Assembly (NCBI GenBank): GCA_017550655.1
Contig: JAFZOK010000013.1
Location: 496,001 to 560,000, forward strand
Length of the DNA stretch: 64,000 nt
Direction of reading: 5' to 3'
DNA from: Bacteroidales bacterium
Lineage (GTDB): Bacteria; Bacteroidota; Bacteroidia; Bacteroidales; UBA932
In this document: in pieces, positions 25,618 through 53,147 of the stretch
Layout of the letters: each line of letters begins with the position of its first letter
Numbering within the stretch: the first letter of the stretch is position 1
Made by a program: the position numbers and the translations under genes
Notes under the pieces: model-generated
The model's input: the letters and a program-made list of their open reading frames with translations, nothing else
Database searches by the model: none
Told to the model about the DNA's origin: nothing

Positions 25618-26652
25618 ATGAACATAAGGCAGTTCATAGAAGAATGCAAGAAAAGACTTTCTCCCCTGTATCCAGCAGGGGAGATTTCTTCTTTAGCCGC
25701 CAGGGCTCTTGAAGACATTTTCAATATTTCCCGCACTCATCAGCTCACATATCCCGAAGAAGAAATCTGTTCAAACACATCTGTTTCATCAGGGGGGCGA
25801 TGCTCTGACCCTGATGAGGTAATATCCCGTCTGGAAAGCGGGGAGCCGGTTCAGTACATCGCGGGCTTCGAGTACTTCTGCGGAGAGAAGTTCAAGGTAG
25901 GCCCGGGCGTCCTGATTCCAAGGCCGGAAACCGAGGAACTCGTCAACCTCATCGCCGAGGCTTTTGAAAGGGATTTCCTTCCGGGTGATGCCGGTGTCCC
26001 GAAATACGGGGGACCGGAATCAAAATACAGGGGAAAACGGTGCCAGTGTCCCGAAAATCAGGAGACCGGAATCACTTTCAATTCTCCTCAACCGTTCAAG
26101 ATCTTTGATGTCTGCACTGGCAGCGGGTGTATCGCCTGGAGTTTGCACAAATTACTTCAGGATGCTGTGGCAAAACGGAATACGGAAATCTCTCTGGAAA
26201 GCTACGGATGTGATATCTCGGAAACTGCTCTCAAATACGCCAAGAGCCAGAGGTTTCTCTATGGCAGGAGATGGCCGATGTTTTTCCGCTACGATGTGCT
26301 GAACGGGGATTTCCCGGCTCTGAAATCCTTCATCGGCAAGCTGGACATAATCGTTTCAAACCCTCCTTACATCGCTGAGAAAGAAAAGGAGATGATGCAC
26401 AAAAACGTGCTTGACTTTGAACCTGAGGAGGCGCTTTTTGTCAGCGATGATGACCCGCTTCTTTTCTACCGCAAAATCGCCGAGATGGCTCAGGAACTCC
26501 TGTATCCTGGAGGCAAACTCTACTTTGAAATCAACCCTCTCTTTGCAGAGGACCTTGAGCAGATGCTCAAAGAAAAGGGATTCTGCAACGTTCTTCTTGT
26601 CAAAGATATAAACGGAAGAATCAGGTTTGCCTCAGCAAGCTATTGTTCCTGA
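25618..26652 (+). CDS. prmC: Release factor glutamine methyltransferase PrmC, with a repeat-bearing insertion
   Basis: A 344-residue SAM-dependent enzyme that methylates the GGQ glutamine of release factors. The N-terminal helical domain has SGEPVQYIAGFEYFCGEKFKV and LIPRPETEEL; the SAM loop is FDVCTGSGCIAWSL; the catalytic motif is VSNPPYI. Between LIPRPETEEL and the SAM loop lie about 50 residues, where E. coli PrmC has about 15. This extra part contains YGGPESKYRGKRCQ and comes from two near-identical 29-base repeats. The frame stays open throughout. The gene starts the base after the tnaA stop and overlaps the convergent radA end by 13 bases. Confidence 0.92.
   Translation: MNIRQFIEECKKRLSPLYPAGEISSLAARALEDIFNISRTHQLTYPEEEICSNTSVSSGGRCSDPDEVISRLESGEPVQYIAGFEYFCGEKFKVGPGVLIPRPETEELVNLIAEAFERDFLPGDAGVPKYGGPESKYRGKRCQCPENQETGITFNSPQPFKIFDVCTGSGCIAWSLHKLLQDAVAKRNTEISLESYGCDISETALKYAKSQRFLYGRRWPMFFRYDVLNGDFPALKSFIGKLDIIVSNPPYIAEKEKEMMHKNVLDFEPEEALFVSDDDPLLFYRKIAEMAQELLYPGGKLYFEINPLFAEDLEQMLKEKGFCNVLLVKDINGRIRFASASYCS
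25660..25684 (+). repeat. Perfect 9-bp hairpin inside prmC
   Basis: TCTCCCCTG (25660-25668) and CAGGGGAGA (25676-25684) form a perfect inverted repeat around a 7-base loop. It lies in the 5' coding part of prmC and encodes normal-looking residues. Confidence 0.6.
25786..25817 (+). repeat. Second perfect 9-bp hairpin inside prmC
   Basis: TCATCAGGG (25786-25794) and CCCTGATGA (25809-25817) form a perfect inverted repeat with a 14-base loop, about 100 bases after the first hairpin. Confidence 0.55.
25994..26074 (+). repeat. 29-base near-identical direct repeat within prmC
   Basis: Two copies (25994-26022 and 26046-26074) share GTGTCCCGAAA at the left and GACCGGAATCA at the right, 25 of 29 bases identical. 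They are 52 bases apart, so they are read in different frames. They make up most of the extra residues of this PrmC. Confidence 0.75.
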
Positions 26653-49646: not shown

Positions 49647-50945
49647 TTGAAACAGTTCAAAGACATATTGGAAAAGGGCCTTGGCAAGAAATGGTCTCTG
49701 ACAGAGGAGGAAAAATCTTCCCTGTGGGAGTCCGTTTCCAGTCAGTTGCCGTCTGCCGAGCCTAAGAGGGGAGGATTCCTCTGGTGGGCCGTTCCGGCAG
49801 CGGTTGCTGCGGCCGTGGCAGCCTTTTTCCTTCTCAGATCGCCTTCCTCTTCACCAACCCCATTCCAGCCTGAAATTAAACCTATTGAAAAAACTACAAC
49901 TCTTGCAGACGGGAACGGGGCAATAGAAAGTGCAGAGTCCCCAACCAGGGAGAAGGAGGCTCAGATGCCTGTGCTGGCTTATTCGGGCACTCAAAAAGTG
50001 TCCGGCCAGCAAGGGTATTCTGGGGAGGAAACAATCCAGAGCGCAGTTGAGAATGCCGAGCTCAAAGACATAATCGCTGAGAATAAAACAGAGGTTATAC
50101 CAGAAGAAAAGATTCAGAATCAGGATATTCCTCAGACGGAACTGAAAGAGCAGAAACAGGAAACAGCCTCTCAGACTCAGGAATCTTCAGAAAAGAATGT
50201 TTCTCCGGAGAAATCTTCAACGCAAAAGAATTCCTCTGCGGTAAAACCTTCTGCCTCAAGAAAGCAGTTAAAGGAATACTACAAGGAACCTTCATCCGGC
50301 AAGAGGCTGGCTTTCTCCGCTTCCTCAAACTTCTCCGGTAGGGGAAAGGTGGAGGGCCCTTCCAACAGCATGATCAAGGCTGTGGCCTCCCAGTTCGGAT
50401 ATATAACCTATTCCATGGCCCCTTCAGTTCAGCAGATTTCACAGACCAAATACGCTTTGCCTCTGAATTTCGCCATCGGAGTAAGCTACAAGGTCAATGA
50501 TGTGCTTACCGTTGGATCTGGCGTAAGCTACTCCTTCCTTCACAGCAAATACAACGGCCTCATCAACGGGCAGTTCTATGATATAAAGCAGGGCGTTCAC
50601 TATATCGGGGTGCCTGTCAAACTGTACTTCAACCTCGGATCAGCGGGCAACGTAGATTTCTACGCAGCAGCCGGAGGTGCAGTGGAGAAGGGCGTGAAGG
50701 TTACCTATCGTATGAAATCCGCCACGGGAAGCGGCAAGACCAGCGACTCCCACGTCAAGGGACTGCAGTTCTCCACCAAGGCCGTTACCGGTCTGGAATA
50801 CCGCTTCGGCAAGAGCAAGAATGTAGGTCTCTATCTTGAGCCTGGAGTTACCTATTACTTTGACTCAGACCTTCCAGCAAGCATCCGCACCGACCATCCT
50901 CTCCAGTTCGAGGCCCAGGCCGGCGTGCGTTTCCATTTGAAATAA
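49647..50945 (+). CDS. Single-pass membrane protein with C-terminal beta-barrel domain, downstream of ECF sigma factor
   Basis: A 432-residue protein that starts at TTG; a stop codon lies 15 bases upstream in frame and no ATG is available until far inside the protein. Residues 1-45 are charged and short like an anti-sigma N-terminus; 47-64 form a membrane helix (WWAVPAAVAAAVAAFFLL); 70-210 are low-complexity, rich in E, Q, K, S, P; and about 230-432 form a barrel of alternating strands ending in FEAQAGVRFHLK. This layout is known next to ECF sigma genes in Bacteroidales, suggesting a combined anti-sigma/envelope sensor. How a barrel with a signal-anchor is placed is unclear. Confidence 0.82.
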   Translation: MKQFKDILEKGLGKKWSLTEEEKSSLWESVSSQLPSAEPKRGGFLWWAVPAAVAAAVAAFFLLRSPSSSPTPFQPEIKPIEKTTTLADGNGAIESAESPTREKEAQMPVLAYSGTQKVSGQQGYSGEETIQSAVENAELKDIIAENKTEVIPEEKIQNQDIPQTELKEQKQETASQTQESSEKNVSPEKSSTQKNSSAVKPSASRKQLKEYYKEPSSGKRLAFSASSNFSGRGKVEGPSNSMIKAVASQFGYITYSMAPSVQQISQTKYALPLNFAIGVSYKVNDVLTVGSGVSYSFLHSKYNGLINGQFYDIKQGVHYIGVPVKLYFNLGSAGNVDFYAAAGGAVEKGVKVTYRMKSATGSGKTSDSHVKGLQFSTKAVTGLEYRFGKSKNVGLYLEPGVTYYFDSDLPASIRTDHPLQFEAQAGVRFHLK

Positions 50946-50953
50946 CGATATTT

Positions 50954-51140
50954 GCGCCCTCTAGCACAAAGAACGGGACAGAGGGAGCATTTTAGGCGGT
51001 TTTTGTTCCCTCTGACACACAGAATGGGACAGAAGGGGCATTTTATGCTTTTTTTGCTCCCTCTAGCACATAGAACGGGACAGAAGGAGCATTTTAGGCG
51101 GTTTTTGCTCCCTCTGACACAGAAACAGGACGGAAGGAGC
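50954..51140 (+). repeat. REP-like array 1: four 51-bp hairpin units
   Basis: Four head-to-tail units with hairpins at 50954-50988, 51005-51039, 51056-51090 and 51107-51140, period exactly 51 bases. Each has arms close to GCTCCCTCT and AGAGGGAGC, a loop holding AGAACGGGAC, and a spacer near ATTTTAGGCGGTTTTT. Units alternate between an AGCACA and a GACACA loop start. Arms have zero to three mismatches. The array begins 9 bases after the barrel gene stop. The following 112 bases up to the transposase promoter hold nothing recognisable. Confidence 0.9.
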
Positions 51141-51252
51141 GCTTTCAGGGAATAACGGCCTCCGCTTCAAGGTGGAAAGCCGCCATAATTCGAATCGAGA
51201 ACTATGTCACACATGAATTCTATCCTAGATTCATTATTCCAATTCATAATTA

Positions 51253-51284
51253 TTTGCAAGACAAGCGAATAATCAATACCTTTG
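51253..51284 (+). promoter_or_regulatory. Promoter of the RAYT transposase gene
   Basis: TTTG (51253-51256), a 20-base spacer and TACCTTTG (51277-51284) form an exact Bacteroidota promoter. The leader would be about 100 bases to the ATG at 51389 and contains a 13-codon out-of-frame open frame from 51334. Confidence 0.7.
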
Positions 51285-51388
51285 AACCTGCTGCAAAAGA
51301 AATAGATGTTGAGGTTTGATGGTTGAGAGTTTTATGGGGGAAGATAAGAGAGGGGCTCGGTATTGTAAAACTTAAAGACTGTCAAACT

Positions 51389-52249
51389 ATGAGCGAAAAA
51401 TTTTGGCTGGTGACCACAGAGCATCTGAAAGACGGATTGTGGTTCCAGGATGAAGAGGATTTCAAGACGGGAATGAGCTATGTTGCTGTCACAAACATCC
51501 TGTCTGGAGTGGGAGTTATGGCATTTGTGCTGATGTCCAACCACGTGCATTTTGTGTTGGGAGGCTCTGAAGATGAAGCACAATTTTTCATAAATCATTT
51601 CAAGCGATTTTATTCCAGATACTTTCACTTCAAGTATTCCTCAACGGAACTATTGCGCAACAACAGCATTAATTTAAGGGAACTGAATATCGGTGACGAA
51701 TCCTTTGAAAAGGCGGTTGCCTATGTTCATATGAATCCCGTGGCGGCAAATATTTGCTCTCACCCTATTGGATATCCTTGGGGTACTGGAGCTTTATTCT
51801 TCAGCGGTTCCTCTATCGCAGGAAAGAGGGTGGATGCTTTTAGCAAGCGCTCCCTATACAAAATTACTCACAGCAAAGTGGCGTTTCCTCCTGAATACAT
51901 CGTTGATGAAAGAGGATTTGTTTCCCCAGTTTCTTATGTTCAGAAAAATTTCGTTGAATCTGTGTTCAGAAGTCCAAAAAGAATGAACTTTTTTCTCAAT
52001 AATTCTTCAAAGGCTAAGTATGATGCCATCTTGCCGACTTTCAAAGATCAGTCTGCTCTGGCAGGAATGTATGATCTATGCAATTCTCTTTTTCGCAAAT
52101 CTTCTATCTGCGATTTAACACAGGAACAAAAGGCGGAACTTCTGAAACAAATGCGTTACAGATTTTCTGCAGATCCAAAACAGCTTTCGCGTATTACGGG
52201 ATTGTCTCAAGACTCGGTGATGGAACTTCTGGATACTTTCAACGCCTGA
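51389..52249 (+). CDS. REP-associated tyrosine transposase (RAYT, Y1/HUH superfamily)
   Basis: A 286-residue single-strand transposase relative. The metal-binding HxH is in AFVLMSNHVHFVLGG (His52, His54). YVHMNPVAANI (residues 112-122) is the conserved helix that should carry the nucleophile Tyr112. The C-terminus (SRITGLSQDSVMELL) looks like a helix-turn-helix. RAYTs are known in proteobacteria to act on REP palindromes; here the gene is bracketed by 51-bp hairpin arrays, which supports the call. The ATG at 51389 gives MSEKFWLVTTEHLKDG, a normal RAYT N-terminus; a TTG at 51323 would add 22 residues without family resemblance. All key residues are present. Confidence 0.9.
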   Translation: MSEKFWLVTTEHLKDGLWFQDEEDFKTGMSYVAVTNILSGVGVMAFVLMSNHVHFVLGGSEDEAQFFINHFKRFYSRYFHFKYSSTELLRNNSINLRELNIGDESFEKAVAYVHMNPVAANICSHPIGYPWGTGALFFSGSSIAGKRVDAFSKRSLYKITHSKVAFPPEYIVDERGFVSPVSYVQKNFVESVFRSPKRMNFFLNNSSKAKYDAILPTFKDQSALAGMYDLCNSLFRKSSICDLTQEQKAELLKQMRYRFSADPKQLSRITGLSQDSVMELLDTFNA

Positions 52250-52255
52250 GTTTTT

Positions 52256-52392
52256 GCTCCCTCTAGCACACAGAACGGGACAGAGGGAGCGTTTTAGGCG
52301 GTTTTTGCGCCCTTTGACACATAGAACGGGACAGAGGGAGCATTTTAGGCGGTTTTTGCTCTCTCTGACACACAGAACGGGACAGAAGGAGC
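52256..52392 (+). repeat. REP-like array 2: three 51-bp hairpin units
   Basis: Hairpins at 52256-52290, 52307-52341 and 52358-52392, again with a 51-base period and the same orientation as array 1. The first has a perfect 9-bp stem (GCTCCCTCT/AGAGGGAGC) with a 17-base loop. The array begins 7 bases after the transposase stop and ends 2 bases before the convergent mlaF stop, so it separates the two 3' ends and may act as a bidirectional terminator. Confidence 0.9.
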
Positions 52393-52394
52393 GT

Positions 52395-53147
52395 TTACCG
52401 GTTGCGCTTGAGTTGTCGGGCCAGATTGTTGGCGAAGACGAAGTCGTTGAGAGGCTGGCAGTCCGTATCCATTATCTCCTTGTTGGAACCCTCCCAGAGA
52501 AGATGCCCCTTGTGGATGAAACCAATATGGTCTCCGATTTCCATAACGGAGTTCATGTCGTGCGTGTTGACGACGGTGGTAATCTTATACTCCTGCGTGA
52601 TTTCCTGAATCAGACGGTCAATGACAATTGCAGTGGTCGGATCCAGGCCTGAATTAGGCTCGTCGCAGAAGAGGTACTTGGGGTTCAGTGCGATGGCTCT
52701 TGCGATGCCCACCCTTTTCTGCATACCTCCGGAAAGTTGGGCTGGATAGAGTTTGTTGGAGTTCTCCAGGTTCACTCTCTTGAGGCAGAAGTTTACCCTG
52801 TCGAGTTTCTGCTCCAGGCTCCAGTCCGTGAAGAAATCCATCGGGAACATGATATTCTCCTCCACGGTGGCAAAGTCGAACAGGGCGCTTTCCTGGAAGA
52901 GCATTCCCATTTCCTTGCGGAAGAGCTTCCTTTCCCCGAACTTCATCCTGGTAAAGTTCCTGTCTCCGTAGAGAATGTCTCCCTTGTCAGGCTCGTACAG
53001 GCCTACAAGGTTTTTCAGCAGGACCGTCTTTCCGCTTCCGCTGGCTCCGATGATCAGGGAACACTCCCCATCCCGGAACTGGATGTTGATGTCCTCCAGT
53101 ACCGGCCGGCCGTCGAATTCCTTGTATAGTCCCTTGACTTCTATCAT
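52395..53147 (-). CDS. mlaF: MlaF-like ABC transporter ATP-binding protein
   Basis: A 250-residue ATPase: Walker A GASGSGKTVLLKNL near residue 32, Q-loop MGMLFQESALFD, signature LSGGMQKRVGIARAIA, Walker B YLFCDEPNSGLDP. The SALFD and GMQKRV features are those of the Mla/Mkl lipid-transport ATPases. It works with the MlaE permease encoded 3 bases upstream to move phospholipids between membranes. The usual MCE-domain gene (mlaD) is not found after it; the RAYT repeat array begins there instead. Confidence 0.93.
   Translation of the reverse strand: MIEVKGLYKEFDGRPVLEDINIQFRDGECSLIIGASGSGKTVLLKNLVGLYEPDKGDILYGDRNFTRMKFGERKLFRKEMGMLFQESALFDFATVEENIMFPMDFFTDWSLEQKLDRVNFCLKRVNLENSNKLYPAQLSGGMQKRVGIARAIALNPKYLFCDEPNSGLDPTTAIVIDRLIQEITQEYKITTVVNTHDMNSVMEIGDHIGFIHKGHLLWEGSNKEIMDTDCQPLNDFVFANNLARQLKRNR

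Follow-up and report, generated by a model that had tools for sequence, protein, structure and literature searches.

A transposase gene of the RAYT type in a rumen-type Bacteroidales genome lies between two tandem arrays of short palindromes, and the same arrangement recurs across its bacterial family. These loci probably constitute a RAYT/REP-type system in which each RAYT lineage carries private palindromes of ~35–37 nt, repeated every 51–52 bp. We analysed a 64,000-nt stretch of contig JAFZOK010000013.1 (assembly GCA_017550655.1), hereafter the window, together with the rest of its genome and with related genomes. Positions refer to the window unless a contig (C) or locus (L) is named, and G numbers denote genomes.

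The loci bear on the way in which RAYTs spread their repeats and on the joint evolution of the two partners; the available part of PMC8266576 compares three enzyme–repeat pairs, from E. coli, S. maltophilia and Marinomonas. The single bacterial family described here forms a natural panel, with dozens of RAYT lineages, often several per genome. As each of the many lineages has its own candidate substrate, specificity could be tested by swapping. The common 51–52-bp spacing offers, in addition, a reaction step that can be measured.

Table 1. Coordinates of the RAYT-A block and of the array-bearing prmC-like gene in the window
Feature	Position	Strand	Basis or remark
Whole block (arrays and RAYT-A)	50946..52394	.	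Between convergent gene ends
Hairpin unit 1, upstream array	50954..50988	+	
Hairpin unit 2, upstream array	51005..51039	+	
Hairpin unit 3, upstream array	51056..51090	+	
Hairpin unit 4, upstream array	51107..51140	+	Degenerate, minus one base
Promoter-like TTTG-N20-TACCTTTG	51253..51284	+	Pattern match to Bacteroidetes promoter consensus
RAYT-A, HUH/Y1 transposase	51389..52249	+	286 aa; H52-V-H54, Y112
Hairpin unit 5, downstream array	52256..52290	+	Folding compared with shuffles
Hairpin unit 6, downstream array	52307..52341	+	
Hairpin unit 7, downstream array	52358..52392	+	
prmC-like methyltransferase gene	25618..26652	+	ORF open through C-type array; Pfam PrmC_N, N6_Mtase; 27-locus alignment
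C-type unit inside prmC	25986..26022	-	R3, 53.2 bits
Second C-type unit inside prmC	26038..26074	-	R3, 33.2 bits

The RAYT-A transposase

The RAYT-A reading frame is intact, giving 286 residues from the ATG at 51389 or 308 from a TTG at 51323. Neither the three paralogues of the window genome nor a 46-sequence alignment containing the window protein shows any variation at H52, H54 or Y112, in keeping with the original prediction of a complete HUH/Y1 enzyme. The protein has the features that define RAYT/TnpAREP transposases, an HUH motif and a catalytic tyrosine in a YxxxNP context. Its tyrosine motif reads YVHMNP, with S or C replacing the proline in many of the aligned relatives. Against the NCBIfam model NF047646 (REP_Tyr_transpos) RAYT-A scores 40 bits (E 3e-10), the curated cut-off being 80, and all 46 aligned members match the model at E ≤ 0.01. 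The C-terminal half is conserved among relatives and has no Pfam match at E ≤ 0.01. Apart from one ribosomal protein, a profile search of the PDB turned up IS200-type matches alone, at E ~0.1 or worse. Those relatives that were measured span 279–301 residues, the shortest being truncated by a contig end. A phage collection gave no match, and plasmids gave two weak, partial ones; an Rfam search of 50900–52450 returned one match only, to a human lncRNA family and far under the gathering score.

Upstream of the gene lies the predicted promoter, present as the promoter-like sequence TTTG-N20-TACCTTTG, which we take to be the Bacteroidetes promoter consensus. Among 93 RAYT genes, 17 have the same pattern in the 300 nt preceding them, where letter shuffles would yield 0.2.

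Hairpin arrays around RAYT-A

Seven 35-nt units, here called type A, surround the gene, four upstream and three downstream, with a spacing of 51 bp on each side. A unit comprises GCTCCCTCT, a 17-nt loop (mostly GACACACAGAACGGGAC) and AGAGGGAGC, and is followed by a 16-nt spacer (ATTTTAGGCGGTTTTT); the arms are 9 bp long. The number of units, their period, their single orientation and their internal dimensions had all been predicted, and we reproduced them, with the fourth unit degenerate and lacking one base. A model trained on plus-strand units matched all seven on the plus strand and four, at far lower scores, on the minus strand. Folded as single-stranded DNA, unit 5 reached −7.8 kcal/mol (z −3.8), a value equalled by none of 200 shuffles. 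Compensatory change within the type-A pairing is weak, with six cells changed on both sides of a pair and as many found in 70 of 500 shuffles. The spacers are near constant, whereas those of a CRISPR array differ from one another. By eye, neither strand of any of the seven units has a GTAG or GTGG foot, which sets them apart from GTAG-marked REPs as predicted, and both ends of the units lack an unpaired CGTC tag.

The block is an insertion at the junction of two convergent genes, an outer-membrane beta-barrel-like gene (stop codon at 50943–50945) and an MlaF-like ABC gene (stop codon at 52395–52397). Among the 39 genomes searched within the genus, 35 yielded the MlaF gene; we retrieved the loci of 29 relatives and examined the junction in the ten nearest by MlaF identity (L221–L230). 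Transposase and arrays are absent at the junction in all ten, and the two stop codons lie −4 to 57 nt apart.

RAYT genes with arrays across the family

Within the family, relatives (E ≤ 1e-10) occur in 174 of 299 genomes. An order-wide sample, searched with a single sequence at the looser limit of 1e-5, gave matches in 7 of 149 genomes, two belonging to the family itself and five being weak. A scan of named genomes found 287 relatives, of which 80 were kept; their titles read Bacteroidales or Bacteroidia (one Prevotellaceae) and denote MAGs or uncultured isolates, many from rumen or forestomach samples.

For the comparison of flanks, 130 retrieved loci were reduced to 95 distinct RAYTs by removing 14 without a recognisable HUH ORF and 21 identical-protein duplicates; near-identical copies of a locus from two assemblies may persist in this set. 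Tandem repeats with a lag of 49–54 bp lie within 600 bp of the gene in 65 of the 95, the best lag being 51 in 31 and 52 in 23, and four other lag bands gave tandem repeats at 3–6 of the 95. As controls we used the flanks of whole ORFs from the genus, excluding the window genome, and found repeats of this lag beside MlaF in 0/29, PrmC in 1/26 and GH3 in 4/29 cases (5/84 in total). With the window genome included, the GH3 ORF flanks gave 5/30, and controls taken beside the tblastn match, where many GH3 and PrmC stretches are intragenic, gave 0/25, 1/23 and 1/28. A control value above zero is expected, since arrays are dispersed in these genomes. The same lag test detects no array at 30 of the 95 RAYTs; a looser cut finds arrays at 74, downstream only in 33, on both sides in 29 and upstream only in 12.

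The divergent RAYT at L058 (G374) has long arrays on both sides, with 11 hairpin units within 500 bp on either side and more beyond. At G374:C40, G374:C31 and G213:C54 the RAYT match is split near residue 140 inside one longer open frame, which may reflect in-frame insertion of repeats into the RAYT.

Link between enzyme lineage and repeat family

Where arrays occur on both sides of a RAYT, they belong to the same family at 28 of 29 loci, in direct orientation at 24, inverted at 3 and tied at 1. We scored arrays of different loci as shared when at least 24 of 30 bases agreed on the same strand. By this measure, RAYT pairs at least 70% identical have arrays in common in 26 of 30 cases, and pairs below 60% identity in ~1–2% of 2,625. 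Some of this agreement reflects no more than common ancestry of the loci, since close RAYT pairs keep their flanking genes (on both sides in four of seven pairs, on one side in three), and ancestry alone could yield the ≥70%-identity half of the correlation. The stronger evidence for a link is the two-sided family match, together with the different families found beside paralogues of one genome.

The window genome (2.26 Mb in 42 contigs, 88% complete) illustrates the latter. It has RAYT matches at just four places, including two further full-length genes, 56% and 51% identical to RAYT-A. The first (L014) is flanked by six units of the CTGTCAGGTCCCCTCGGAAAACATGGGACCTAGCAG type with a period of 52, four of them upstream and two downstream, and the second (L015, RAYT-C) has two downstream units of the TGATGCCGGTCTTTTAAAATTCGGGACACCGGCATCA type with a period of 51. 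The three paralogues thus go with three array families (A, B and C) whose sequences are unrelated. The fourth match (L016, C30:327425) is a distant Y1 transposase of 25% identity, with two B-type units ~1.6 kb upstream.

Within the genus, the type-A model (E ≤ 0.001) matches 7 of 39 genomes, with 37 copies in the window genome (G000), 11 in G413, 5 in G304, 3 in G410 and one each in G265, G336 and G254. Five or more copies occur only in G000, G413 and G304, all carrying a close-clade RAYT; the 12 genomes with such a RAYT divide into five with type-A copies and seven without. Copy number does not follow identity to RAYT-A, the nearest relative (G254a, 64%) going with one copy and those of G304 (60%) and G413 (52%) with 5 and 11; in G410 only a RAYT-C orthologue was detected, yet three type-A copies are present. 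The repeat is not common in RAYT-free genomes of the genus: among the 14 of 39 without a RAYT match (E ≤ 1e-10), only G265 and G336 have type-A copies, a single one each. The predicted partnership of RAYT and cognate repeat is well supported by association, through the two-sided family match and the private arrays of each lineage, and the link between repeat type and RAYT is loose, not one to one.

Dispersed copies in the window genome

With covariance models we located at least 39 type-A (E ≤ 0.1), 23 type-B and 9 type-C unit positions in the window genome, matches to both strands at one place being counted once; these are lower bounds, because 150 of 947, 485 and 614 first-look candidates, respectively, were scored. 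Most of the positions fall in arrays stepping 51–52 bp. Such copies elsewhere in the genome had not been predicted, nor had the paralogues with arrays of their own or the second array type inside prmC. The type-A positions are spread over 12–13 sites, and no RAYT match lies beside those away from the window. Among eight type-A sites inspected, one is intragenic and several follow closely 3′ of a stop codon (L182, L190, L201). At L201 (1501–1800; C30:421813–422129), B-type units stand between two pairs of A-type units, and B units also occur at the end of an A-bearing GH3 gene (C15:234966–235157), as if arrays gather.

These observations bear on whether the RAYT and its arrays form one transposon of the IS200/IS605 kind with multi-hairpin ends, the dispersed arrays being internally deleted relics. 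IS200/IS605 ends are in direct orientation, like the arrays at 24 of 28 loci, and the whole 1.45-kb block is what the ten nearest relatives lack at the junction. However, the genome has no near-identical second copy, the paralogues being 51–56% identical; none of its four RAYT places is beside a type-A site outside the window. The flanking genes shared by close RAYT pairs, moreover, indicate that the loci are mostly inherited in place. We regard a single transposon of this kind as unlikely.

Arrays inside coding genes

The two C-type units within the prmC-like gene of the window (25986–26074) are in frame, between the segments PRPETEELV and CTGSG. A two-unit array occupies the same position in 4 of 27 ORFs, from the window genome, G243, G413 and G254. 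A division of these arrays into four unlike families proved wrong, as pairwise matches give two: G243 and G413 agree at 28 of 30 bases and the window genome and G254 at 24, with cross pairs at 19–22. The array of the window genome is closest to that of its own RAYT-C (27/30), the orthologous array of G410 scoring 26, and the array of G243 is closest, among all RAYT-flanking arrays, to that of its own RAYT (26/30). For G413 the own RAYT array scores 22 and the best 23, and for G254 the best match (25) comes from other genomes. In the N-terminal part of prmC, G413 (L271) and G254 (L272) also have a second, low-complexity insertion that differs between the two.

Two further genes carry units in frame. 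A GH3-family gene of the window genome (613 aa) contains three type-A-like units 17 codons apart, and its G413 orthologue has two units of differing sequence at the same place; among 30 GH3 ORFs scanned, just these two have such a repeat. In both species the GH3 array has its best match in G304 or at a score level with it (28); the own arrays score 27 in the window genome and 24 in G413. At that place the GH3 genes of L077, L085 and L087 have Ser/Gly-rich inserts of another kind. An oxidoreductase gene with a DHODB-type iron-sulphur domain (L204, 808–1854; C30:127071–127208) holds three type-A units in frame. Taking the best matches at prmC and GH3 together, a strict link between the array family at an inserted site and the resident RAYT held in part only. 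The in-frame arrays of prmC and GH3 point to a route by which repeats can turn into protein sequence.

Arrays within reading frames also weigh on a role for the host, in which the palindromes would serve regulation as transcript ends, mRNA protection or nucleoid sites and the RAYT would be a domesticated partner. Several of the inspected type-A sites do closely follow a stop codon, and the loci of close RAYTs have stayed put in different species. Neither the in-frame copies in prmC, GH3 and the oxidoreductase gene nor the replacement of array sequences from one RAYT lineage to the next sits well with a fixed host function, and we consider this reading very unlikely.

A model for array growth and spread

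In the RAYT/REP-type system that we favour, the enzyme would recognise the hairpin into which an exposed single strand folds, cut it with the tyrosine Y112 and join the ends, so that whole units, singly or several at a time, would be released or inserted on one strand. Insertion beside an existing unit would build arrays and insertion at new sites would give dispersed copies, the common period being the length of the piece moved. Palindrome and enzyme would drift together, which would leave paralogues with unrelated arrays. Enzyme type, hairpins, directly oriented flanks and dispersed copies all agree with TnpAREP/RAYT systems. We infer that recognition would be strand-specific, that cutting and joining would follow, and that units would move, not whole loci.

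The main rival for array growth is slippage or unequal crossing-over, by which arrays would expand and shrink once one unit is in place, with the RAYT only seeding or binding them and not building tandem arrays. Head-to-tail repeats with constant spacing commonly result from slippage; adjacent units are in many cases almost identical (L014, L025), and arrays differ between species. On its own, slippage leaves unexplained why a 51–52-bp period is common to arrays of unrelated sequence, and why both sides of a gene have the same family. We hold this explanation to be possible, if doubtful.

A narrower form of the RAYT-driven scheme, which we put forward tentatively and think improbable, is that the enzyme extends, trims and overwrites a hairpin satellite one 51–52-nt unit at a time. 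A fixed site would then keep its array, unit number and frame while the family of the resident RAYT replaced the sequence. It is prompted by prmC, where the arrays of four species share position and a unit number of two and fall into two families, and where the array is nearest to the species' own RAYT-flanking array in two of the four.

Comparison with known systems

RAYTs were initially thought to be described mostly in gammaproteobacteria. That view is incomplete: according to the available part of PMC6006769, TnpAREP subclass 2.6 (RAYT group 5) is found mostly in Bacteroidetes, with atypical flanking structures that lack GT[AG]G and have copies elsewhere. RAYT-A resembles this subclass in its host group, in its HUH motif (NH[LIV]H, here NHVH) and in flanking structures without GT[AG]G that recur elsewhere. 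The subclass is further characterised in that source by the motifs WQ and YIH[QN]NP and a length of 179 aa. Unlike it, the consensus of our 46 sequences has no W at positions 20–130; the tyrosine motif is YVHMNP in RAYT-A and YVQMNxV in the consensus; and the proteins are longer, 286 aa for RAYT-A and 279–301 aa for the measured relatives. RAYT-A thus lacks three of the four subclass 2.6 features examined, the flanking structures being compared with the description in PMC6006769 only. Its tyrosine motif also differs from those given for the other class 2 subclasses in the available part of that paper. The RAYT-A arrays are tandem, a word absent from the main text of PMC6006769.

As a gene flanked by genome-dispersed palindromes, RAYT-A has the organisation of a REPtron. 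Compared with the E. coli type, as far as PMC8266576 was available, it shares the HUH motif with a single tyrosine, palindromes in many copies and co-evolution of enzyme and palindrome. It differs in having no GTAG 5′ of the hairpins, a long loop, head-to-tail units at 51–52-bp spacing and a 286-aa protein with a conserved C-terminal half. TIRtrons, in the available part of PMC3733652, consist of a RAYT-like gene between TIRs, and a genome contains several such genes with different repeats. Our loci share the RAYT-like gene, the family-forming flanking repeats and the presence of several genes per genome; unlike TIRs, the flanks are direct in the window and at 24 of 28 loci, and inverted at three. 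The same part of PMC3733652 reports REPs in frame in genes, with different REPs at approximately the same recB site in two species. The in-frame arrays described here resemble such intragenic REPs and Rickettsia RPEs as short palindromes that preserve the reading frame of the genes they occupy. They differ in that two of the inserted arrays come from families that also flank RAYTs of the same genome, and in the 17-codon step in GH3. With IS200/IS605 elements the system shares a Y1 HUH enzyme and hairpins at the ends. It departs from them in the motif YVHMNP with no Y...Q, in the lack of near-identical copies and in having arrays in place of single end hairpins.

The ingredients therefore have precedents, as PMC6006769 and PMC3733652, in their available parts, report parts of the system separately. 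Their combination, namely a separate RAYT group, head-to-tail arrays stepping 51–52 bp, families private to a lineage and arrays that differ at a single site within a gene, was not met in the open-access literature searched. The suggestion of an undescribed class of repeat is plausible, given that the W and Y motifs and the length of subclass 2.6 (PMC6006769, as available) are missing and that the literature searched had no 51–52-bp arrays. Judged from sequence, the RAYT-A system looks like an undescribed branch of REP/RAYT selfish-DNA systems.

Features shared among repeat units

To compare units between lineages, one was chosen per array by palindrome strength, within a preset length range of 33–38 nt. 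In 52 of 74 arrays the palindrome is stronger than in Markov-resampled sequence (p ≤ 0.05); in the other 22 it is not. An inner GGAC occurs in 40 of the 74 units and GTCC in 37, where shuffled units would give ~3; this enrichment calls for caution, since choosing by palindrome strength favours such pairs. The inner GTCC/GGAC may nonetheless be regarded as a candidate recognition motif, though not a universal one. GGGAC as a universal tag was ruled out by its absence from the units of L042, L049 and L058. The spacer 3′ of the chosen units is AT-rich with a G/C-rich middle. Lastly, between the orthologous C arrays of L015 and L024, the two arms of each of the two units differ on the same strand as CCGG against CCAG, a change that breaks the pairing.
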